Assembly: GCF_000002985.6 (NCBI RefSeq)
Contig: NC_003279.8
Coordinates: 4,526,001 to 4,590,000, forward strand
DNA: 64,000 bases
Source: Caenorhabditis elegans
Taxonomy: Eukaryota; Nematoda; Chromadorea; Rhabditida; Rhabditidae
Direction of reading: 5' to 3'
Both the position numbers and the translations under genes were made by a program. Shown here piece after piece: positions 14,349-52,817 of this stretch. Below the pieces are notes generated by a model, which was not told where the DNA came from, ran no database searches, and saw nothing but the letters and a program-made list of their open reading frames with translations. Positions within the stretch are counted from its first letter, which is position 1. Every line of letters begins with the position of its first letter.

Positions 14349-17300
14349 AAAATATATTCCAAAACTTTTCTAAAATCCGCCGCAGTGCCATTTTTCTGAA
14401 ATCCGCCGCAATGCCATTTTTCTAAAATCTGCCGCAACGTCATTTTTCTGAAATCCGCCGCAATGCCATTTTTCTAAAATCCGCCGCAATGCCATTTTTC
14501 TAAAATCCGCCGCAATGCCATTTTTCTGAAATCCGCCACAATGCCATTTTTCTGAAATCCGCCGCAATGCCATTTTTCTAAAATCCGCCGCAATGCCATT
14601 TTTCTAAAATCCGCCGCAATGCCATTTTTCTGAAATCCGCCGCAATGCCATTTTTCTGAAATCCGCCGCAATGCCATTTTTCTAAAATCCGCCGCAATGC
14701 CATTTTTCTAAAATCCGCCGCAATACCATTTTTCTAAAATCTGCCGCAACGTCATTTTTCTGAAATCCGCCACAATGCCATTTTTCTAAAATCCGCCGCA
14801 ATGCCATTTTTCTAAAATCCGCCGCAATACCATTTTTCAAAAATCCGCCGCAATGCCATTTTTCAAAAATCCGCCGCAATGCCATTTTTCTGAAATCCGC
14901 CGCAATGCCATTTTTCAAAAATCCGCCGCAATGCCATTTTTCTAAAATCCGCCACAATGCCATTTTTCTGAAATCCGCCGCAATGTCATTTTTCTAAAAT
15001 CCGCCGCAATGCCATTTTTCTAAAATCCGCCGCAATGCCATTTTTCTAAAATCCGCCGCAATGCCATTTTGATAAAATCCGCCGCAATACCATTTTTCTA
15101 AAATCTGCCGCAATGCCATTTTTCTGAAATCCGCCGCAATGCCATTTTTCAAAAATCCGCCGCAATGCCATTTTTCTGAAATCCGCCGCAATGCCATTTT
15201 TCTAAAATCCGCCGCAATGCCATTTTTCAAAAATCCGCCGCAATGCCATTTTTCTAAAATCCGCCGCAATGTCATTTTTCTAAAATCCGCCGCAATGCAA
15301 TTTTTCTAAAATCCACCGTAATGCCATTTTTCTGAAATCCGCCGCAATGCCATTTTTCAAAAATCCGCCGCAATGCCATTTTTCTAAAATCCGCCGCAAT
15401 ACCATTTTTCTAAAATCCGCCGCAATGCCATTTTGATAAAATCCGCCGCAATGCCATTTTTCTAAAATCCGCCGCAATGCCATTTTTCTGAAATCCGCCG
15501 CAATGCCATTTTTCTAAAATCCGCCGCAATGCCATTTTTCTAAAATCTGCCGCAACGTCATTTTTCTGAAATCCGCCGCAATGCCATTTTGATAAAATCC
15601 GCCGCAATGCCATTTTGATAAAATCCGCCGCAATGCCATTTTTCTAAAATCCGCCGCAATGTCATTTTTCTGAAATCCGCCGCAATGCCATTTTGATAAA
15701 ATCCGCCGCAATGCCATTTTTCTAAAATCCGCCGCAGTGCCATTTTTCTGAAATCCGCCGCAATGCCATTTTTCTAAAATCCGCCGCAATGCCATTTTTC
15801 TAAAATCCGCCACAATGCCATTTTTCTGAAATCCGCCGCAATGTCATTTTTCTAAAATCCGCCGCAATGCCATTTTTCTGAAATCCGCCGCAATGCCATT
15901 TTTCTAAAATCCGCCGCAATGCCATTTTTCTGAAATCCGCCGCAATGCCATTTTTCTAAAATCCGCCGCAATGCCATTTTTCTAAAATCCGCCGCAATGC
16001 CATTTTTCTAAAATCCGCCGCAATGCCATTTTGATAAAATCCGCCGCAATGCCATTTTTCTAAAATCCGCCGCAATGCCATTTTTCTAAAATCCGCCGCA
16101 ATGCCATTTTTCTAAAATCCGCCGCAATGCCATTTTTCTAAAATCCGCCGCAATGCCATTTTTCTAAAATCCGCCGCAATGCCATTTTGATAAAATCCGC
16201 CGCAATACCATTTTTCTAAAATCTGCCGCAATGCCATTTTTCTGAAATCCGCCGCAATGCCATTTTGATAAAATCCGCCGCAGATGTCATTTTTCTAAAA
16301 TCCGCCGCAATGCCATTTTTCTAAAATCCGCCGCAATGCCATTTTTCTGAAGAGTCCGCCACAATGTCATTTTTCTAAAATCCGCCGCAATGCCATTTTT
16401 CTAAAATCCGCCGCAATGTCATTTTTCTAAAATCCGCCGCAATGCCATTTTTCTGAAATCCGCCGCAATGCCATTTTTCTGAAATCCGCCGCAATGCCAT
16501 TTTGATAAAATCCGCCGCAATGCCATTTTTCTAAAATCCGCCGCAATACCATTTTTCTAAAATCTGCCGCAACGTCATTTTTCTGAAATCCGCCACAATG
16601 CCATTTTTCTAAAATCCGCCGCAATGCCATTTTTCAAAAATCCGCCGCAATGCCATTTTTCAAAAATCCGCCGCAATGCCATTTTTCAAAAATCCGCCGC
16701 AATGCCATTTTTCAAAAATCCGCCGCAATGCCATTTTTCTAAAATCCGCCGCAATGTCATTTTTCTAAAATCCGCCGCAATGCCATTTTTCTAAAATCCG
16801 CCGCAATGCCATTTTTCTAAAATCCGCCGCAATGCCATTTTTCTAAAATCCGCCGCAATGCCATTTTTCTGAAATCCGCCGCCATGCCATTTTTCCGAAA
16901 TCCGCCGCAATGTCATTTTTCTAAAATTCGCCGCAATGCCATTTTTCTGAAATCCGCCGCAATGCCATTTTTCTGAAATCCGCCACAATGCCATTTTTCA
17001 AAAATCCGCCGCAATGCCATTTTTCTGAAATCCGCCGCAATGCCATTTTTCTGAAATCCGCCGCAATGCCATTTTTCTGAAATCCGCCGCAATGCCATTT
17101 TTCCGAAATCCGCCGCAATGTCATTTTTCTAAAATCCGCCGCAATGCCATTTTTCTGAAATCCGCCGCAATGCCATTTTTCTAAAATCCGCCGCAATGCC
17201 ATTTTTCTGAAATCCGCCGCAATGTCATTTTTCTGAAATCCGCCGCAATGCCATTTTTCTAAAATCCGCCGCAATGCCATTTTGATAAAATCCGCCGCAA

Positions 17301-18847
17301 TGCCATTTTTCTGAAATCCGCCGCAATGCCATTTTTCTAAAATCCGCCGCAATGCCATTTTGATAAAATCCGCCGCAATGTCATTTTTCTGAAATCCGCC
17401 ACAATGCCATTTTTCAAAAATCCGCCGCAATGCCATTTTTCTGAAATCCGCCACAATGCCATTTTTCTAAAATCCACCGCAATGTCATTTTTCAAAAATC
17501 TGCCGCAATGTCATTTTTCTAAAATCCGCCGCAATGCCATTTTTCTGAAATCCGCCGCAATGCCATTTTTCTAAAATCCGCCGCAATGCCATTTTTCTAA
17601 AATCTGCCGCAACGTCATTTTTCTGAAATCCGCCACAATGCCATTTTTCTAAAATCCACCGCAATGTCATTTTTCTGTAATCCGCCACAATGCCATTTTG
17701 ATAAAATCCGCCGCAATGCCATTTTTCTAAAATCCGCCGCAATGCCATTTTTCTAAAATCCGCCGCGATGCCATTTTTCTAAAATCTGCCGCAACGTCAT
17801 TTTTCTGAAATCCGCCACAATGCCATTTTTCTAAAATCCACCGCAATTTTATTTTTCTGAAATCCGCCGCAATTCCATTTTTCTAAAATCCGCCGCAATG
17901 CCATTTTTCAAAAATCCGCCGCAATGCCATTTTTCTGAAATCCGCCCCAATGCCATTTTTCTAAAATCCGCCGCAATGCCATTTTTCTGAAATCCGCCAC
18001 AATGCCATTTTTCTAAAATCCGCCGCAATACCATTTTTCTGAAATCCGCCCCAATGCCATTTTTCTAAAATCCGCCGCAATGCCATTTTTCTAAAATCCG
18101 CCGCAATGCCATTTTTCTAAAATCCGCCGCAATGCCATTTTTCTGAAATCCGCCGCAATGCCATTTTTCTGAAATCCGCCGCAATGCCATTTTTCTAAAA
18201 TCCGCCGCAATGCCATTTTTCTAAAATCCGCCGCAATACCATTTTTCTAAAATCTGCCGCAACGTCATTTTTCTAAAATCTGCCGCAACGTCATTTTTCT
18301 GAAATCCGCCGCAATGCCATTTTTCTAAAATCCGCCGCAATGCCATTTTTCTGAAATCCGCCGCAATGCCATTTTTCTGAAATCCGCCACAATGCCATTT
18401 TTCTAAAATCCGCCGCAATGCCATTTTTCTGAAATCCGCCACAATGCCATTTTTCTGAAATCCGCCGCAATGCCATTTTTCTGAAATCCGCCACAATGCC
18501 ATTTTTCTGAAATGCGCCGCAATGCCATTTTTCTGAAATCCGCCACAATGCCATTTTTCTAAAATCCGCCGCAATGCCATTTTTCTGAAATCCGCCGCAA
18601 TGCCATTTTTCTGAAATCCGCCGCAATGCCATTTTTCTGAAATCCGCCGCAATGCCATTTTTCTAAAATCCGCCGCAATGCCATTTTTCTGAAATCCGCC
18701 GCAATGCCATTTTTCTAAAATCCGCCGCAATGCCATTTTTCTGAAATCCGCCGCAATGCCATTTTTCTAAAATCCGCCGCAATGCCATTTTTCTAAAATC
18801 CGCCGCAATGCCATTTTTCTGAAATCCGCCGCAATGCCATTTTTCTA
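14349..18847. repeat. 26-bp tandem satellite array (about 172 copies)
   Basis: The unit is AATCCGCCGCAATGCCATTT plus TTCTAA or a variant, period 26 bp. Variants change the junction (TTTTTCTAAAA, TTTTTCTGAAA, TTTTGATAAAA, TTTTTCAAAAA) and single bases (GCCACAATG, TCTGCCGCAACGTC). The first unit is preceded at 14349-14361 by AAATATATTCCA, the same 12-mer that forms the array at 22877. Because 26 is not a multiple of 3, the minus strand reads through all three frames of the repeat and gives spurious periodic open frames (MALRRILEKWHCGGF...). These have no gene features. Confidence 0.97.
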
Positions 18848-21805
18848 ATGTGGCTTCCCACTATATTTGACTCTCTGTGGCTTCACCGATTATTTTACTC
18901 TCTGTGGCTTCACCGATTATTTTACTCTCTGTGGCTTCACCGATTATTTTACTCTCTGTGGCTTCCCACTATATTTTACTCTCTGTGGCTTCACCGATTA
19001 TTTTACTCTCTGTGGCTTCACCGATTATTTTACTCTCTGTGGCTTCACCGATTATTTTACTCTCTGTGGCTTCCCACTATATTTTACTCTCTGTGGCTTC
19101 CCACTATATTTTACTCTCTGTGGCTTCCCACTATATTTGACTCTCTGTGGCTTCCCACTATATTTTACTCTCTGTGGCTTCCCACTATATTTTACTCTCT
19201 GTGGCTTCACCGATTATTTTACTCTCTGTGGCTTCACCGATGATTTTACTCTCTGTGGATTCACCGATTATTTTACTCTCTGTGGCTTCACCGATGATTT
19301 TACTCTCTGTGGCTTCACCGATTATTTTACTCTCTGTGGCTTCACCGATTATTTTACTCTCTGTGGCTTCACCGATGATTTTACTCTCTGTGGCTTCACC
19401 CACTATATTTTACTCTCTGTGGCTTCACCGATTATTTTACTCTCTGTGGCTTCCCACTATATTTTACTCTCTGTGGCTTCCCACTATATTTTACTCTCTG
19501 TGGCTTCACCGATTATTTTACTCTCTGTGGCTTCCCACTATATTTTACTCTCTGTGGCTTCCCACTATATTTTACTCTCTGTGGCTTCACCGATGATTTG
19601 ACTCTCTGTGGCTTCACCGATGATTTTACTCTCTGTGGCTTCACCGATGATTTTACTCTCTGTGGCTTCCCACTATATTTTACTCTCTGTGGCTTCACCG
19701 ATGATTTTACTCTCTGTGGCTTCACCGATGATTTTACTCTCTGTGGCTTCACCGATGATTTTACTCTCTGTGGCTTCCCACTATATTTTACTCTCTGTGG
19801 CTTCCCACTATATTTTACTCTCTGTGGCTTCCCACTATATTTTACTCTCTGTGGCTTCCCACTATATTTGACTCTCTGTGGCTTCCCACTATATTTTACT
19901 CTCTGTGGCTTCCCACTATATTTTACTCTCTGTGGCTTCACCGATTATTTTACTCTCTGTGGCTTCACCGATTATTTTACTCTCTGTGGCTTCACCGATT
20001 ATTTTACTCTCTGTGGCTTCCCACTATATTTTACTCTCTGTGGCTTCCCACTATATTTTACTCTCTGTGGCTTCACCGATTATTTTACTCTCTGTGGCTT
20101 CACCGATGATTTTACTCTCTGTGGATTCACCGATTATTTTACTCTCTGTGGCTTCACCGATGATTTTACTCTCTGTGGCTTCACCGATTATTTTACTCTC
20201 TGTGGCTTCACCGATTATTTTACTCTCTGTGGCTTCACCGATTATTTTACTCTCTGTGGCTTCCCACTATATTTTACTCTCTGTGGCTTCACCGATTATT
20301 TTACTCTCTGTGGCTTCACCGATTATTTTACTCTCTGTGGCTTCACCGATTATTTTACTCTCTGTGCTTCACCGATTATTTTACTCTCTCGATTATCTGT
20401 ACTCTCTGTGGCTTCCCCGTATATTTTACTCTCTGTGGCTTCCCACGATATATTTTACTCTCTGTGACTTCACCGATTATTTTACTCTCTGTGGCTTCCC
20501 ACTATATTTGACTCTCTGTGGCTTCACCGATTATTTTACTCTCTGTGGCTTCACCGATTATTTTACTCTCTGTGGCTTCACCGATTATTTTACTCTCTGT
20601 GGCTTCCCACTATATTTTACTCTCTGTGGCTTCCCACTATATTTTACTCTCTGTGGCTTCCCACTATATTTGACTCTCTGTGGCTTCCCACTATATTTTA
20701 CTCTCTGTGGCTTCCCACTATATTTTACTCTCTGTGGCTTCACCGATTATTTTACTCTCTGTGGCTTCCCACTATATTTTACTCTCTGTGGCTTCCCACT
20801 ATATTTTACTCTCTGTGGCTTCCCACTATATTTTACTCTCTGTGGCTTCCACTATATTTTACTCTCTGTGGATTCACCGATTATTTTACTCTCTGTGGCT
20901 TCACCGATTATTTTACTCTCTGTGGCTTCACCGATTATTTTACTCTCTGTGGCTTCACCGATTATTTTACTCTCTGTGGCTTCCCACTATATTTTACTCT
21001 CTGTGGCTTCCCACTATATTTTACTCTCTGTGGATTCACCGATTATTTTACTCTCTGTGGCTTCACCGATTATTTTACTCTCTGTGGCTTCACCGATGAT
21101 TTTACTCTCTGTGGCTTCACCGATTATTTTACTCTCTGTGGCTTCCCACTATATTTTACTCTCTGTGGCTTCCCACTATATTTTACTCTCTGTGGCTTCC
21201 CACTATATTTTACTCTCTGTGGCTTCCCACTATATTTTACTCTCTGTGGATTCACCGATTATTTTACTCTCTGTGGCTTCACCGATTATTTTACTCTCTG
21301 TGGCTTCACCGATGATTTTACTCTCTGTGGATTCACCGATTATTTTACTCTCTGTGGCTTCACCGATGATTTTACTCTCTGTGGCTTCACCGATGATTTT
21401 ACTCTCTGTGGCTTCACCGATTATTTTACTCTCTGTGGCTTCACCGATTATTTTACTCTCTGTGGCTTCCCACTATATTTTACTCTCTGTGGCTTCCCAC
21501 TATATTTTACTCTCTGTGGCTTCACCGATGATTTTACTCTCTGTGGCTTCACCGATTATTTTACTCTCTGTGGATTCACCGACTATTTGACTCTCTGTGG
21601 CTTCACCGATTATTTTACTCTCTGTGGCTTCACCGATGATTTTACTCTCTGTGGCTTCACCGATTATTTTACTCTCTGTGGCTTCACCGATTATTTTACT
21701 CTCTGTGGCTTCCCACTATATTTTACTCTTTGTGGCTTCCCACTATTTTTTACTCTCTGGCTTCCCAGTATTTTTTACTCACTGGCTTCCCACTATATTT
21801 TACTC
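18848..21805. repeat. 27-bp tandem satellite array (about 109 copies)
   Basis: The 27-bp unit begins CTCTGTGGCTTC and exists in two main forms. One continues ACCGATTATTTTACT, with an ACCGATGATTTTACT variant, and the other continues CCACTATATTTTACT. The forms are interspersed in runs that look like higher-order blocks; for example, the stretch around 19200-19400 recurs around 20060-20240. The junction with the 26-bp array at 18847 is abrupt. The period is divisible by 3 and the unit lacks stops, so long open frames (up to 570 codons) appear in several frames; these are artefacts. Confidence 0.97.
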
Positions 21806-22016
21806 TAGAATAAAAAACTTATCACTACTTTGATTTACTCGATCAAAAGATCATTTTTGATCAAGTATAGAACTGTTGAAATTGATTTTACACCGCCATA
21901 CAGCGATATTACGAGCAGTGAGTCAAAAATCAGAGTTCTCTTCTAATGGTTTTCATTTAGATTTGGAAGAATTGTAAAAAAGTTTGAGGAGTACGAAGAG
22001 TTTTCAGTCAATGAGC
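21806..22016. other. Unique spacer between oppositely oriented satellites
   Basis: About 210 bp of non-repetitive AT-rich sequence separate the forward 27-bp array from its inverted counterpart. It includes the small palindrome GATCAAAAGATCATTTTTGA followed by TC. I see no gene. Confidence 0.7.
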
Positions 22017-42961: not shown

Positions 42962-44024
<1,063 letters not shown>

Positions 44025-45213: not shown

Positions 45214-48200
45214 TTAAGCTGACAACAAATTGTAAAATGGATTTCGTCGCGACATTGGCGGACACTCGCAGTAGTTTCCATCTCGTCCGGGACGGCCCGT
45301 GTGTCCTGGCTGAAAATTTGAAAAAAATGTATCGGCTGAAAATTGCTGGGCCTGCCTTAAATGTGCCAAACTTTTGAGTAAAATTTTCACTAAAATTTTT
45401 GTGTGCTTTAGCTAGGTACAAGACAAGAATAAGTTACACTTAAAGGTGAAACATTTAGTATGTCTTTGCTCAACTTTGGCAGCCTATGCCTTCAGTTTTA
45501 GCCGAAAATTGTCAACTGACAAAATAATTGTACTTTCTAGAGGTTTTCCAGAAAGAAAATGGTTTTCTCTATTATTTTGTTAATTGATTTTTTAAAAGAA
45601 TATAACAATTTTCCTTCAAAATTTTCCGTTTTTTAGAGAATTTTTAAAAAATTTTTGTGAATATTTATATCACAAAATAATTTACTAATTTTTCACTTAC
45701 ATGCCCAGTTGCCCCAGTCCTTCCATTCAATCCATTCTTGCCAGATCGTCCACTAGGACCAATGATCCCGGTGTTGTAAACTAAAAATTTATTAGCATTG
45801 ATGTCAGTTCAAACTCGCGCGCAAATAATCCGACCAATCAACGACGCCGGGCACGCCCGCTGCTCGTCGGTGATTGGTCGGCGCTCTTCTTTGATATCAA
45901 GGAGATTTCCAACAACAAAACAAGTAACTCACTAAATCCCGCATTTCCCTGTGCTCCTTGATATCCTTTTCGTCCAGCTCTTCCACGTGGCCCCGGTAGA
46001 CCAATATATCGATTTTTATTATTTCCAGGTGGCCCAACTGGTCCAACTGGTCCAGGAAATCCCGGGTAACCTTGCCATCCAACCTCCCCAGTTGGCCCGG
46101 GTAATCCAATCACCGCTTTCACCGATATTCCATTTTTCCCGTCTTTTCCCTTCTTTCCTCGTTTCCCCCTTTTGCCACGTGGCCCCGGTTTCCCGATATG
46201 GCATTGAATACATCCATTTGCAACAAGAACACTGATTCCAGAGAACCCGTTAGTCCCGTTAACTCCAGGTTCACCTGGTATTCCGTCTTTTCCTGGTTTT
46301 CCAGGGATGCCTGGTGGGCCTTCTGGACAATTTTTACTTTTTCGTTGGCAATCTGGAAATTTTTCATATTAGGTCAAGTGGTATCCCGTGGCATCTCAAA
46401 TGAAATATTTTTACTTCCATTAATACCTGCCAAACATATCTCCAAATAATTCTTCTTTTTCTCCAACTTCTTTCGACTTTTCACCAATTTCTCCTTTTTC
46501 CTCACATCCACCCCATTTATAGAACCCAGTGAGCTTCCATCAACTGCCGCAACCGCATCTGGAAGATGATGTTCTGATGCTAGAACGCCTGAAAAGGTTT
46601 CATAAATGAATCATAAAATTTCAGCATTTTCTGCCTACTTTGATAGGTGTCCGCAGGAACCATCTTCTGGACATAAAGAGTTGGATCGTACTGTTGGGTT
46701 CTGTACGAAGTGGCAAAACGCCGGAATCTTCGATGAGTTTTCAGAAGGTTAATCTCGTTCCAAGCTTCATTTGAGGCATACTGAAAAGTTATGAGAGTGG
46801 GAGTTCTGTCAAAATATACACAACCTTTTTTTTATTTTTCAAACCAGCCGCTGACCGCGCCTACGGCGCGGGCAACGACTGGCACCATTAAAAGTGTTTG
46901 ACACACATACCTTCAATCACTCAAAAAATTTCTCATCATGAAAAAAACTTGAAACACTTAAAACGCGGTTTACTGGCACTGTTACATGTATGTATTTTTC
47001 TACGACATGCATGTTTCAAAAATTCACAGACAGTATGAAAACTTTCTGTTACTTTTTGACCAAGACAGTAACCTTACAATACCACTACAGTACCTTGACA
47101 TTATCCTCCACCGACTCCTAACCCAATATCTCTTCAAAGGACAAAAAGTCAAATTTTCCAAAACTACAGTAACCCTACCGTATACCTACAGTACCCCTAT
47201 AGTACCACTACAGTACCTTGACTTGATCCCCCATCAACTCCCAAATAACTACCTCTTCTAAAGCTCTAAGCTCAATTTTTCGGAACATTCCAGAATTTTC
47301 TCGATTTTTCTAGAAAGTTCTGGAACATTCCAGAATTTTCTCGATTTTTCTAGAAAGTTCTGGAGCATTCCAGAATTTTCTCGATTTTTCTAGAAAGTTC
47401 TGGAACATTCCAGAATTTTCCCGATTTTTCTAGAAAGTTCTGGAACATTCCAGAATTTTCTCGATTTTTCTAGAAAGTTCTGGAACATTCCAGAATTTTC
47501 CCGATTTTTCTAGAAAGTTCTGGAACATTCCAGAATTTTCTCGATTTTTCTAGAAAGTTCTGGAACATTCCAGAATTTTCCCGATTTTTCTAGAAAGTTC
47601 TGGAACATTCCAGAAATTTCCCGATTTTTCTAGAAAGTTCTGGAACATTCCAGAATTTTCCCGATTTTTCTAGAAAGTTCTGGAACATTCCAGAATTTTC
47701 TCGATTTTCTAGAAAGTTCTGGAACATTCCAGAAATTTCCCGATTTTTCTAGAAAGTTCTGGAACATTCCAGAATTTTCCCGATTTTTCTAGAAAGTTCT
47801 GGAACATTCCAGAATTTTCTCGATTTTTCTAGAAAGTTCTGGAACATTCTTTTTTCCCGCCAAAAAATTTTTCTCAGAAAATTTAAATTTCCCGCCAAAA
47901 TATTTTTCACAGAAAATTTAAATTTCCCTCCAAAATATTTTTCTCAGAAAATTTAAATTTCCCGCCAAAATATTTTTCACAGAAAATTTAAATTTCCCGC
48001 CAAAATATTTTTCACAGAAAATTTAAATTTCCCGCCAAAATATTTTTCTCGGTGGGTCTCACCACGACGGGTCTCACCACGGTGGGTCTCACCACGATGG
48101 GTCTCACCACGATGGGTCTCACCACGATGGGTTTCGCCACGATGGGTCTCGCCACGACGGGTCTTATCACGGTGGGTCTCGCCACGATGGGTCTCACCAC

Positions 48201-49059
48201 GATGGGTCTTACCACGATGGGTCTCACCACGACGGGTCTCACCACGGTGGGTCTCACCACGATGGGTCTCACCACGATGGGTCTCACCACGATGGGTCTC
48301 GCCACGACGGGTCTTATCACGGTGGGTCTCACCACGGTGGGTCTCACCACGGTGGGTCTCGCCACGATGGGTCTCACCACGATGGGTCTCACCACGGTGG
48401 GTGTCACCACGATGGGTCTCACCACGGTGGGTCTCACCACGATGGGTATCACCACGACGGGTCTCACCACGATGGGTCTCACCACGACGGGTCTCACCAC
48501 GGTGGGTCTCGCCACGACGGGTCTCACCACGATGGGTCTCACCACGGTGGGTCTCGCCACGATGGGTCTCACCACGATGGGCCTCACCACGATGGGTCTC
48601 ACCACGATGGGTCTCACCACGAAGGATGACAGACCCCGCCCACAATTCTCAGTGACTTTGGGTGTGACGTCACAGACTACAAAGACTACATAGACTACAA
48701 ACTATGGAACAAACGGAATTATTTTTTTATATATAAGTAATGATTGTTCAGTTAATGAATTGGCAAATTGCCAAAGTTTAGAAAGTTTTAATTTTTGATA
48801 AAAAAATAATTTTCAGATGAAAATACTTGAAGCATAGTAAGCGTACTTTTAAAATTTTGATAAGCTTATAAATATTTAAATGAGATTTAAACTTGTTCTA
48901 AATTTTTTAACTTACCGAAAACTCCTTCATCTCCACTGCGACCATTTTCTGAAGTCCATGAATTTCGTGAATCATTTTAGAGAAAAAATGCGCGAAAATT
49001 ATCGATATAGTAGTGAATCCGATTAGGTAAACTGTGAGAATTAATGATTTAGTTTGCAT
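45214..49059 (-). CDS. Cuticle-type collagen
   Basis: Minus-strand exons 48916-49059, 46639-46780, 46427-46588, 45933-46352, 45701-45780 and 45214-45309 join in phase to 347 residues. An N-terminal hydrophobic segment (LILTVYLIGFTTISIIFAHF) acts as signal or membrane anchor. RRFRR at residues 65-69 matches the furin-type processing site of worm cuticle collagens. Gly-X-Y repeats run from about residue 161 and are broken by a non-collagenous stretch with two Cys (NGCIQCHIGK) followed by an unusually basic run (PRGKRGKRGKKGKDGKNG). The C-terminus ends with GNYCECPPMSRRNPFYN. AATAAA follows the stop by only a few bases (45205-45210). Intron 1 (46781-48915) is 2.1 kb and holds three tandem arrays, including heat-shock elements. 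I cannot assign the col number. Confidence 0.95.
45815..45895. repeat. Palindromic CCAAT-type foldback in collagen intron
   Basis: CCGACCAATCA at 45830-45840 faces TGATTGGTCGG at 45871-45881, around a GC-rich centre (CGCCGGGCACGCCCGCTGCT). It is related to the elements at 4933 and 51351. Confidence 0.8.
47050..47270. repeat. CTACAGTACCTTGAC degenerate repeat
   Basis: CACTACAGTACCTTGACATT and CACTACAGTACCTTGACTTG occur about 125 bp apart, with similar CTACAGTA pieces between them. The stretch directly adjoins the heat-shock-element array. Confidence 0.6.
47279..47852. promoter_or_regulatory. Tandem 40-bp repeats made of heat-shock elements (about 14 copies)
   Basis: Each 40-bp unit contains six contiguous alternating pentamers of the heat-shock element, TTCTA GAAAG TTCTG GAACA TTCCA GAA, then a spacer TTTTCTCGATTT or TTTTCCCGATTT. 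Fourteen or so units are nearly identical, giving about 80 HSF half-sites. The array lies in intron 1 of the collagen gene. HSF-1 binds TTCnnGAA arrays, and tandem elements of this kind carried by Helitron transposons have been described in C. elegans. Whether it drives the collagen or anything else is untested here. Confidence 0.9.
47853..48050. repeat. 35-bp tandem repeats with E2F-like core (about 6 copies)
   Basis: The units combine TTTCCCGCCAAAATATTT with TTCACAGAAAATTTAAA or TTCTCAGAAAATTTAAA. TTTCCCGCC matches the E2F/DP consensus TTTSSCGC. One unit is altered to TTCCCTCC. The array directly follows the heat-shock-element array. Confidence 0.85.
48050..48625. repeat. 15-bp minisatellite (about 38 copies)
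   Basis: The unit is GGTCTCACCACGATG with ACG and GTG variants. The period is a multiple of three and no stops occur, so both strands show long periodic open frames (TTMGLTTMGLTT on plus, HRGETHRGET on minus). These are inside a collagen intron and are rejected as genes. Confidence 0.95.
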
Positions 49060-49788
49060 ATTCAATAAATTAATAAATAGTGTCGAAAAAATCATTTATT
49101 TGTTTTCGTTTATATGGACAACCTAGAGGAATCTACGGAAAGTGGGAGGAAGATGGAGAAAGTAATAAGGGAAAAGTGGTAGTAGATAATTAAAGGAAAG
49201 TACCACAGTTAGCTATAGTTACAAGCCGACAAAAAACCAGAAGTAACAGTTATTTTGAAGAGGGAAAGGAAAGATATGACAATTATGAAGAAACATCGAA
49301 ATCACAGGATAAGTGGGTGTACCCAAAGAATAACAAATATCCTACTGGGGAAGAAAGAAAATGGCAAACTTGGCTTTGGCAAATGATAATTGGAATTTTA
49401 ATATGTTTTTTTTTTTGATAATTATATTATACAAACTAACTATTCAAACTGGCACATTCAAAAAGTTAGTTAGGTTCATTTTTAAGATAAGTAGCAATAT
49501 TGTTCCATAGACTGAAAATGGTTCAAAAATCCCACAATTGATAATGAGACTTCTCAAAAAAAAATTCAAACATTTTTTAATGTTTTTTTGAGAATTCTCA
49601 ACATGAAATTTGGTCTTTTGGGACATTTTTAGGCTATTAAAAATTTGTTAAAGTTTTGCTACTTTTCCTTTGTGCTTTCAAAAATTTATCAACTACAAAA
49701 GTGCACGTTGAATTATTTTCTACACTTTTGTAGTTGATAACTTTTTTATATCACTTGAAATAACATAACTACAAACTCTTTAACTGGC
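49060..49788. promoter_or_regulatory. Collagen upstream region
   Basis: This gap between the collagen start and the 3' end of the next minus-strand gene should contain the collagen promoter. No additional gene is seen. A small inverted repeat, AACTACAAAAGTGCA / ACACTTTTGTAGTTG, lies at 49690-49738. Confidence 0.45.
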
Positions 49789-51200
49789 TCACTTTTTTGA
49801 AAAAAAATTAGTAAAAGATGTGAAAATGGTTGTAATGCATGCATAGGTAAACGCAACAAAAGCAGTGATTATTTGAGGTGCTGAATTTATTTGGCGAGTG
49901 ATTGGAGATGAACGGACCATAGCTCGAGAATGTGATTGCGGGATTGTTGCGACTGGAACACCAATACTTTCCGCTGATAGCTTGCGAGAATTGGTTATTC
50001 TGGAACAAAAATGTTTTTAATAAAAATTCGAGTTCAATTTAATATTAAAAAATATAAGTTTTCAAATCGTTTTTTTTTAGTTTCAAAAAACTTTATTTAA
50101 AAATTTCACTTCAAATTTTCGAATTTCTTTGTTTCTTTTTTTTTTGAGAGATTCAGCCCGGGTCTCCATTTGATCCCCAATATGGGTGACGTCACACGTA
50201 ACAGTGGTATTTTATAGAGGTACACTAACTTATATGTTCACTTCATATGAAATGTTAAAATTTAAATTTTCGAAACAAGGAACAATTTCGTTCAAAGCGA
50301 TTTTTCCTATCTTTAATATTTTACATCTCGGAATTACGACGTCACAATCGTTTTTCAGTTATTTTGGTGTAGAAAATCGTGCGTGACGTCATCATGTACC
50401 ACATAATATAAAACTTACGTATAAACGGGCAAATGGTTCTCTCTGGGATGACTTGCTATACTTCTTGTAGTTATATCCCCATCCTCATTGAAAACTGCTT
50501 TTCGTGGTTTCGAATGTTTCCTCCTGATCTCAGGAATTTCTGGTATTTCGGGAATTGTTGGCATTTGAACAGCAGTCGACGAACCTGGAAACTTTTTTTT
50601 TGTTGCTAGCAAATCATTTAATGAATAAATAAAATAAAATAAACGCTAAAATAATTTTAGAAAATTTGCAGACAAGATGACAAACTTTCAAGTGGAAGCT
50701 TTACTTGGTTGAACAGCGGATACTTGAAGTGGTAATGGATCAGGTCGTGGTGTCACGTCGAGACCCTCTTCAATTCGAATCATTCGAATTAGATCTTTCA
50801 TTGGATGAAGCTTCCTGTAAACTGTTTCAGAATTTTCTTAGAATTGGTCATATTACTCAGACAAAATTTTGGCCCAAGTGATAAATACCTACCCATCAGA
50901 AAACGTCCTGGAAGTTCTAGCGGTCTCAAAAATATCCACATTAATTTCAGACAAGGTATCTGTCGCCAGAGGTACTGGAATTTCTGCGATCGCAGTTTGA
51001 GCTGGTTGGGTATTTGATGGTCGAATTGCCACGTGAGGAATCATCAGATGTGACTGACCATTTACTTTGATTTCAATTGGTTCTAACTGAGTACTTTGAA
51101 TATTTTCAAGATTTTGTTGTTGTTGTTGTTGGGAAGAAGAAGATCTTCGGAAATATCGAGAACAACAACATATTGATGAGGATGGACTATTTGGAGACAT
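49789..51200 (-). CDS. Unrecognised protein with C-terminal membrane segment
   Basis: Minus-strand exons 50893-51200, 50705-50814, 50419-50584 and 49789-49999 join in phase to 264 residues. The N-terminus is Ser/Cys-rich (SPNSPSSSICCCSRYFRRSS) and could be lipid-modified; a Gln run follows. The middle is hydrophilic with a short EIPEIPEIP repeat and basic patches (RRKHSKPRKAVF). The last 30 residues are hydrophobic (ITAFVAFTYACITTIFTSF), ending close to the stop, which suggests a tail-anchored or single-pass protein with a cytoplasmic N-terminus. There is no signal peptide. A TTTTCAG acceptor lies 4 bp before the ATG. I do not recognise a family. Confidence 0.75.
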
Positions 51201-52817
51201 TTGTCTGAAAATTTTAGAGACTTGGCGAGGTGTTGATTTTCAAAGAAATTTTCGAAAGGTCTCATAACGAAATTCAACCTTTAAAAAGCATTTTAAGTAC
51301 ACTAGTTTGACATTTCTGGAATTTAACTACTCTACCTTTAGAAGTCCTCTGAATTTGAAATTCGCGCTCGAGAATTGCGCTCACCAATCAGCAGTACACG
51401 AAGGACAAAGTGAACTCTGTTGATTGGTCGGCACAATTCTCAATAGCGCGCGAATTTCAAATATCCTCAGCAATTTGACTCTAAACTAGATGTATTTTTA
51501 AACAAAGTGGTCAAAGTCAATACGAAACAAAAAAGTTGAAAAGCTCGAACCAAAGTATATAAAAATCAGCAAAAAAAAGCGAAGCAAAACCTAACTCAGT
51601 TAGCTGTTACGAGAGCTCTTTTCCCCTCTCTCGCGTTTCTTGGCAACCGATATATTCTGTTAGGTTGACTGGTCGAAGGTGTTGTCAGAAAATATAAAAG
51701 AAAATATGGAGAGGGAGGGAGGGGAAGATGAAGGAGCTATGCGATCTGTGATATGATAAGTAATTAGAGGGTTTGTGTGTGTGTATGCATACGCATGAAA
51801 AGCTCGAAAGAAATGTTTTTCTTAGAATTTGAAACTTTTTTGAGGGTAAAAACGTTTTGAATAGAGGAGGGTAATTTCTAATTCGGTTGAGATTTTTTCT
51901 TTAAAAACTTCTAGAGAGGGAGTTTCTATGTAGGCATCAATAAATTCCTGTCTGCCTTTCAGCCTTCAAGGCCCCCTGTCGTATGTCTATATCTTAAGCC
52001 ACCACACGATTTCTAGGCCAAAATTCGTTCAGAAAAACATTAATTTAAAATTTTTTAAATTTCAACCTTTAATTAACTTTTTTCTCAAGTAGTTAAAAAA
52101 GCTGGGACGAGGGTATTTTATAAAATATTGGTTAAAAAAATACAAAAAGGATAAAAATTCAGCCTAGGATTTCCGAGTTTTTTATCCTTACTTTTCGAGG
52201 TCAATTTTGAAAAGTTTCACACAACGTCCGATGTCCTCCAACAATGTGGTATCTTACGATTCAAAGATACGGTAACAGGTCTCGACGAGACCGGAAGCAT
52301 TTCTAGTGTGCGCCTTAGCAAGTTTTTTTGAGAGCAATAAATGACAAACCAAATAGAAAATAGAAAGCTACAGTACTCTTTGATCGCGTCAGGACCTGGT
52401 ACCGGTCTTTTCTGTCAAAAATATGACTCCGCAACTAGATAAAAACTAGGTAAGGTAGGTATGTAGGTAGGTAAAAATTCAAAGGGCAAAAAAAACTACA
52501 GGAATAATTAAAAATTTGTGTTCAGTGAACAGAAAGTGTCAATCTATCTATAATGTATGTCATACTGAACCGCATAATAAAAATGATAAAAATGTTCACA
52601 AGCGCCTCCGGAAAACGTGGTTTTATCAGTAGTTTTGACTCAGGGTTCTTATCCATTTGGGTTACTGTAGTTGAGCTCGATTTTCCTGACATTTAAAATA
52701 TTATTTTTTATAACGTTCTTTGCATAAAACTGCAGGAAAAAATCAGAATTACAATCAAATTATTTTTTAAAAAAATAATAGAAATAAATTTTAAATCATT
52801 TTAGATTATTTAATTAT
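51201..52817. promoter_or_regulatory. Intergenic/promoter region
   Basis: This 1.6-kb gap lies upstream of the tail-anchored-like gene. A CT/GA-rich tract at 51615-51725 (CTCTTTTCCCCTCTCTCGCG, then GGAGAGGGAGGGAGGGGAAG) is a plausible core promoter. TAGGTAGGTA repeats occur at about 52450-52475, and GAGACCGG dispersed-repeat pieces at 52270-52400. No gene is seen. Confidence 0.45.
51351..51463. repeat. Palindromic CCAAT-type foldback
   Basis: GAATTTGAAATTCGCGCTCG through CACCAATCAGCA is mirrored by CTGTTGATTGGTCGG through GCGCGCGAATTTCAAAT. It shares the ACCAATCA core with the elements at 4933 and 45815. Confidence 0.85.

Follow-up and report, generated by a model that had tools for sequence, protein, structure and literature searches.

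Helitrons begin with TC at the 5′ end, terminate at the 3′ end in CTRR after a short hairpin, and insert between A and T without target duplication. In C. elegans, 11,527 of the 18,766 genomic heat-shock elements (HSEs) are reported to lie in Helitrons, HSF-1 and Pol II are generally higher at these HSEs on heat shock, and eight copies of HelitronY4_CE carry more than 100 HSEs (PMC6927752). Collagens are enriched among the heat-shock genes with Helitron HSEs, and three genes are induced less in wild isolates without the insertion; the published rule is framed for HSEs up to 2.5 kb upstream of start sites, and introns are not mentioned by that word in the available part of the account (PMC6927752). 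HSF-1 binds tetrameric and pentameric HSEs cooperatively (PMC9148306), and an autonomous element, Helitron1_CE, is described as heat-induced through HSF-1 (PMC6765114, PMC6927752). Helitrons packed with HSF-1 sites have already been published as a kind, and the copy described here is an ordinary one, a further case in which a transposon has supplied a gene with heat-shock sites. It lies in the window, the whole 64-kb stretch of C. elegans DNA that was analysed (C1:4526001-4590000), and was compared with a genome of 100,286,401 bases in seven contigs.

A complete Helitron with an HSE array

Followed on its own strand, the Helitron runs from the 5′ end through the 15-bp, 35-bp and HSE arrays, all three of them part of the element, to the CTACAGTA-rich part and the 3′ palindrome. 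From the 5′ to the 3′ end, with one smaller neighbouring array, the features are:

46844..48743, minus strand: complete non-autonomous Helitron, 1900 bp, with its 5′ end at 48743 and its 3′ end at 46844
48742..48743, minus strand: 5′-terminal TC, preceded by A on the element strand
48665..48672: single TGACGTCA near the element 5′ end, presumably CRE-like
48053..48622, minus strand: 15-bp array of TGGGTCTCACCACGA, 38 copies (TRF)
47853..48048, minus strand: 35-bp array, 5.6 copies (TRF), with TTTCCCGCC, which we take to be E2F-like, at five of the six TTTCCCNCC places
47282..47849, minus strand: HSE array, period 40 bp, 14.2 copies, 96% matches (TRF)
47164..47217: small 11-bp array, left of the HSE array (TRF)
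47065..47281, strand not assigned: CTACAGTA-rich inner 3′ part
46844..46882, minus strand: 3′-terminal 39-bp imperfect palindrome with the hairpin CCGCGCC-tac-GGCGCGG, ending in CTGG and followed by T

The consensus unit of the HSE array reads GAA TTC GAA TTC GAt TTC GAA TTC with two-base spacers between the pentamers, and so consists of seven consecutive perfect pentamers and a degenerate one (GAT). As 40 is eight times five, the GAA/TTC alternation continues across unit borders. Among runs of four or more perfect pentamers, twelve are 7 long, one is 5 and one 4; in the third unit (47362) one GAA is replaced by GAG, which breaks the run there, and a 1-bp deletion near 47707 causes the single register shift in the array. 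With an HSE defined as at least three alternating GAA/TTC pentamers, the array contains 67 perfect, overlapping trimers and the rest of the 64-kb window none; the collagen-locus stretch has 112 when up to one mismatch is allowed. Twenty simulated first-order Markov sequences, each 64 kb long, contained between 0 and 5 trimers, with 4 as the longest run. The initial annotation had proposed about 14 copies of an HSF-1-type site at a 40-bp period; the sites, copy number and period are as it described, but its unit of six pentamers has to be replaced by seven perfect pentamers plus one degenerate. It had also placed the array between two unusual arrays, and this does not hold, as both large arrays (35 bp and 15 bp) lie on the right and the left has only the small 11-bp array.

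Both ends of the element are well defined. Read on the minus strand it is A|TC ... hairpin ... CTGG|T, the CTGG at 46847-46844 standing behind a GC-rich hairpin as a CTRR terminus; with A at 46843 and T at 48744, the insertion is between A and T. A genome search with 46780-48920 returned 410 matches, and many dispersed genomic copies terminate at the same bases as the window element. Relatives agree from 46844 on (CCAGCCGCTGACCGCGCCTACGGCGCGG...) and differ before it: besides the window, 30 rows, overlapping loci included, diverge here or a few bases away, and two of them, L015 and L001, are altered near this left (3′) end. At the right end, 48743 or a base close to it is where matches to the terminal region break off. 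In the loci extracted, A precedes 39 of 41 5′ ends. A loose 3′-end motif matched 66 times, with T as the next base in 34 cases, G in 1 and C in 31; the C-followed matches, assigned as a group and not one by one, are interpreted as opposite-strand readings of the inner arm of the 39-bp terminal palindrome, and once they are dropped T follows 34 of 35 3′ ends. Pairing of ends in the extracted loci yields 21 two-ended copies of 1068-3783 bp, including that of the window, 20 of which have both the A and the T flank. That the array might be carried by a Helitron had been guessed initially, with an end search proposed over 46800-48650; the guess proved right, although the right end, at 48743, lies just past that span.

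No Rep/helicase gene is present inside the 1900-bp element, which is mostly arrays, and none of the 13 matches to PF14214 (Helitron_like_N) falls inside the 64-kb window. Rfam at gathering scores over 45500-51500 and a plasmid search gave no match. The identity and anatomy of the Helitron are firm; from the HSE density described in PMC6927752, we infer that it is of the HelitronY4_CE type.

Sister copies and the growth of the arrays

The 15-bp, 35-bp and HSE arrays occur in this order in 15 of the 21 two-ended copies. Two others have a multiplied HSE/15-bp pattern, one has the HSE array only and three the 15-bp array only, counts that depend on detection limits as poor alignments were dropped. 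When 30 loci, including the window, were chosen by their 5′ end alone from 41 matches (L063 and L064 overlap), an HSE was found within 1.5 kb inside the 5′ end in 28 and within 1.5 kb outside it in 2; L042 and L055 have no HSE within 1.5 kb inside.

This last result bears on the view that the array is an inert minisatellite, a 10-bp palindromic unit expanded by slippage that HSF-1 does not occupy and whose resemblance to HSEs is a by-product. TRF periods of HSE arrays are divisible by 10 in 162 of 171 rows (with some overlap between rows), as 10-bp slippage gives, and a 10-bp unit therefore seems to have been their starting point; among the non-HSE arrays of that DNA the figure is 16 of 375 rows, which also overlap. 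Phase-breaking deletions in the 18,375 aligned bases, 76 of them of 1 bp and 13 of 2 bp, also speak for this view. Against it stand the presence of HSEs inside 28 of 30 loci picked without regard to them, a consensus unit with seven consecutive perfect pentamers, and the reported binding of HSF-1 to related Helitron arrays (PMC6927752), and we regard an inert array as exceedingly improbable.

In the 35-bp array, TTTCCCGCC is an E2F-like motif. Such sites are present inside 27 and outside 9 of the 30 5′-end loci. In the 28 of 60 aligned arrays that passed the filter, the nine core positions of the 35-bp unit have 8.4 variant events each and the other 26 positions 9.4; with a core hardly quieter than the rest, the reading as an array of E2F sites was set aside as a side note. 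EFL-1 is listed among seven factors with at least 20% of their sites in transposon-derived DNA, HelitronY4 not being named in the available account of these sites (PMC8896005), and among the best-ranked titles of a literature search none paired Helitron and E2F.

Several further repeats were seen in passing. The region 47065-47281 resembles repeats elsewhere at ~82-87%, many of them at a spacing of 123 bp (for example at C5:3434630-3441083, C1:1371563-1373341 and C3:6567204-6572208), as if the inner 3′ part of the Helitron and a 123-bp satellite shared an origin. Matches at C4:4921383, 4923652 and 4925921 are exactly 2269 bp apart, as if a segment with a Helitron had been triplicated in tandem. 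At L044, sequence resembling the 3′ end of another Helitron begins a few bases after a Helitron 5′ end, so that two Helitrons seem to adjoin. Elsewhere in the window, a minisatellite of 26 bp × 172 copies (14366-18848) directly abuts one of 27 bp × 110 copies (18849-21806; both TRF), with further repeats continuing after 21806, up to 22959.

The host collagen gene

The Helitron sits in intron 1 of what appears to be a cuticle collagen gene and shares its orientation (minus strand); the exons are read as follows:

48916..49059, minus strand: collagen exon 1 (MQTKSLIL...KEFS), donor GTAAGT
46781..48915, minus strand: intron 1, 2135 bp, acceptor TTTTCAG; 235 bp without the Helitron
46639..46780, minus strand: collagen exon 2
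46427..46588, minus strand: collagen exon 3
45933..46352, minus strand: collagen Gly-X-Y exon, low end set by eye from a GTGAGT donor

More Gly-X-Y exons seem to continue below 45810 on the minus strand, and the Gly-X-Y repeats match PF01391 above the cut-off (E 2.9e-15). With a curated cut-off of 23.5 bits, Col_cuticle_N (PF01484) scores 21.0 bits (E 0.00036) on exons 1 and 2 joined and 18.1 bits (E 0.0029) on the whole collagen reading, and has no match in exon 1 alone, exon 2 alone or exon 1 with part of exon 3; as the match arises only across the joined exons, the Helitron-bearing intron appears to split the N-terminal domain. The N-terminal exon is absent from the 149 genome matches to Col_cuticle_N, obtained from scoring 150 of 178 candidates. 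The location in a collagen intron, as initially proposed, is thus borne out by the exon reading and by this weak domain match. Downstream of the collagen, near 43090 on the minus strand, is a homeodomain that we take to be of the ceh-17 kind.

The window collagen may or may not be col-52. If collagen numbers in the fifties lie on chromosome I, as they presumably do, the window gene would be favoured. As described in PMC6927752, the only paper in the literature searched to contain both col-52 and collagen as whole words, col-52 is a heat-induced collagen with 86 HelitronY4 HSEs upstream and a 3.5-fold rise. The wording "upstream" favours a second cuticle collagen, at C5:13441988 on chromosome V (L019), where another HSE-rich Helitron of this family lies ~0.9 kb upstream of the first exon, at C5:13439722-13441083. 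That Helitron contains 54 perfect trimers, or 85 allowing up to one mismatch; like the 67 and 112 of the window locus, these counts do not reproduce the exact cut-off behind the published 86. Judged by eye and against the HSE arrays listed, no other of the 149 Col_cuticle_N matches has such an array within a few kb.

Probable recruitment of HSF-1 and proposed transcription from the intron

Given the genome-wide results in PMC6927752, recruitment of HSF-1 to the window array is likely by analogy. It is highly probable, in our estimate, that a Helitron of the HelitronY4_CE type, inserted in collagen intron 1, carries an array that supplies an HSF-1-dependent enhancer or internal promoter. A transposase-less Helitron would have inserted in intron 1 in the orientation of the gene, its array giving the intron such an enhancer or promoter; on heat shock, HSF-1 would load cooperatively on the array, open the element and start or boost transcription there. 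Counting against this reading are the upstream position to which the published rule applies (PMC6927752), a Col_cuticle_N match below the curated cut-off, and single-unit variants as frequent in HSE cores as in spacers. The published binding results (PMC6927752, PMC9148306) would accordingly have HSF-1 loading on the array and driving transcription inside intron 1. Transcripts begun there miss exon 1, in which the N-terminal domain begins, so that the product of an internal promoter would often be without exon 1 and hence without the start of that domain, whereas a full-length collagen mRNA requires a start upstream of exon 1. This argues against the simple proposal that the array makes the collagen heat-inducible: as the insertion apparently splits the N-terminal domain, the product expected of array-driven transcription is a truncated one. 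The effect of the Helitron on the collagen is inferred and could go either way.

The array and its genomic sisters might instead soak up HSF-1 and damp the canonical response, in germ cells above all. There are many large HSE arrays genome-wide, and a 2022 review states that in heat-stressed germ cells HSF-1 prefers helitrons and that its activity is repressed (PMC9737000); a sink is therefore not a new idea. The 67 perfect trimers at this locus are, however, a small share of the 11,527 Helitron HSEs, which have also been linked with gene induction (PMC6927752), and we consider it unlikely that the array acts chiefly in this way.

Sequence variation within the arrays

Of 70 aligned HSE arrays, 26 (18,375 bases) passed the filter. 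Variant events per position number 5.0 in the pentamer cores, 12.75 in the spacers and 13.67 in the GAT pentamer, which was left out of the cores (position permutation p 0.0015, indicative only, as are the p values below, since the arrays share ancestry), and variation is lower in cores than in spacers in 25 of the 26 arrays. Variants confined to a single unit are equally frequent in both (14 in 9687 core bases, 12 in 7312 spacer bases, p 0.84), so that nothing shows present selection on the window array. When GAT is counted as core, the true layout gives 0.035/0.061 for cores and spacers and a layout shifted by one base 0.029/0.071, the shifted layout separating the data better. Inside the cores, C/G positions tend to vary more than A/T positions, and mutation bias may thus contribute. 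Selection on the HSE cores was rejected on the single-unit result and on the better separation by the shifted layout. The core and spacer rates, their consistency across 25 of 26 arrays and the single-unit variants would fit constraint on the transposon lineage and none on single insertions, although the shifted layout speaks against this, and mutation bias together with shared ancestry could lie behind much of the pattern.

These results also weigh on adaptive co-option, in which the insertion made the collagen heat-inducible and host selection has kept the array. Such a history would suit the enrichment of collagens among Helitron-HSE heat-shock genes and the 3.5-fold rise of col-52 (PMC6927752). 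The single-unit variants, with no excess in spacers over cores, count against it; the quieter cores in 25 of 26 arrays reflect shared, older variation and would speak for the lineage of the transposon instead, and it is the layout shifted by one base that gives the better separation. We judge adaptive co-option very unlikely.

Predicted folding of array transcripts

An intronic repeat of this kind could also seed silencing, by drawing repressive chromatin or by making double-stranded RNA (dsRNA), and so lower collagen expression. The minus-strand RNA of the array has a predicted fold of -261.7 kcal/mol against -136.2 ± 6.1 for 100 shuffles (z -20.7), the plus strand folds about equally (-270.4 kcal/mol, computed without shuffles), and repressive marks are reported near Helitrons (PMC6927752). 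The fold, however, comes from the GAA/TTC lattice itself. With the spacers shuffled, 77 of 300 units fold as well as or better than the real unit and 964 of 2000 match it in self-complementarity, whereas none of 200 letter-shuffled units folds as well; strong structure thus follows from the lattice and was rejected as a selected trait. Silencing seeded by the array seems improbable to us.

An apparently autonomous relative and the probable origin of the array

On chromosome II, L067 (C2:856273-859403) has a 5′ end at C2:857897 that is related to that of the window element (90% identity), behind which come a 15-bp array and, at 856458-856616, eight HSE trimers. On the same strand, downstream of both the 5′ end and the HSEs, is a match to Helitron_like_N (PF14214) at C2:854653-855000. 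This layout puts the HSEs between the 5′ end and the transposase gene of an apparently autonomous element, and the window element looks, by sequence, like a derivative that has kept the ends and the HSE region and lost the gene. The HSE array of the window would then be a swollen form of the HSE region upstream of the transposase gene in autonomous Helitrons, the non-autonomous copies having kept both ends and that region without the gene. In such a scheme the array would first have served the transposon, through heat-timed expression and perhaps mobilisation. L067 presumably belongs to Helitron1_CE.

A possible link between long HSE lattices and HSF-1 granules

The largest HSE array among the matches listed is on chromosome V, where HSE-unit matches tile ~8 kb (C5:7917313-7925021; L077, at least 96.8 copies) near two Helitron 5′ ends in opposite orientation, at C5:7914367 and C5:7915797. 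The putative binding sites of worm HSF-1 granules were described as unknown in 2019, and dsRNA foci formed on heat shock overlap these granules (PMC6453478). According to a 2022 review, the granules come back in similar places and are largely unknown in composition (PMC9737000); such recurrence implies a scaffold. We tentatively propose, as a distinctly unlikely but specific possibility, that the long HSE lattices of the family, the ~8-kb array on chromosome V first and the window array as a mid-sized member, scaffold HSF-1 nuclear stress granules, with their transcripts feeding the dsRNA foci. Since the GAA/TTC lattice is self-complementary, array transcripts would fold into dsRNA; induced by heat, they could supply the foci that overlap the granules, and the dispersed arrays would be the worm counterpart of human satellite III. 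The available parts of PMC9737000, PMC9261439, PMC6453478 and PMC12062965 do not link Helitron arrays with granules. As a class, the arrays are named, countable candidates for the granule binding sites and scaffold.

Comparison with known systems

The closest described system is HelitronY4_CE, likewise a C. elegans Helitron with scores of clustered, overlapping HSEs and with collagens among its neighbours (PMC6927752). It is reported upstream of genes, whereas the window copy is intronic by the exon reading, and the two are likened by description rather than by consensus. Helitron1_CE, if L067 is a member, shares with the window element a related 5′ end and a 15-bp array with HSEs behind them; it differs in carrying a Helitron_like_N gene and in having eight HSE trimers, compared with 67 in the window element. 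Human satellite III, the site of nuclear stress bodies, likewise consists of long tandem repeats bound by heat-shock factor, as far as it is described in the sources available, and the worm arrays are, like it, a possible seat of HSF granules. Satellite III forms a pericentromeric block, whereas the worm arrays are dispersed, transposon-borne and ~0.1-8 kb in length.
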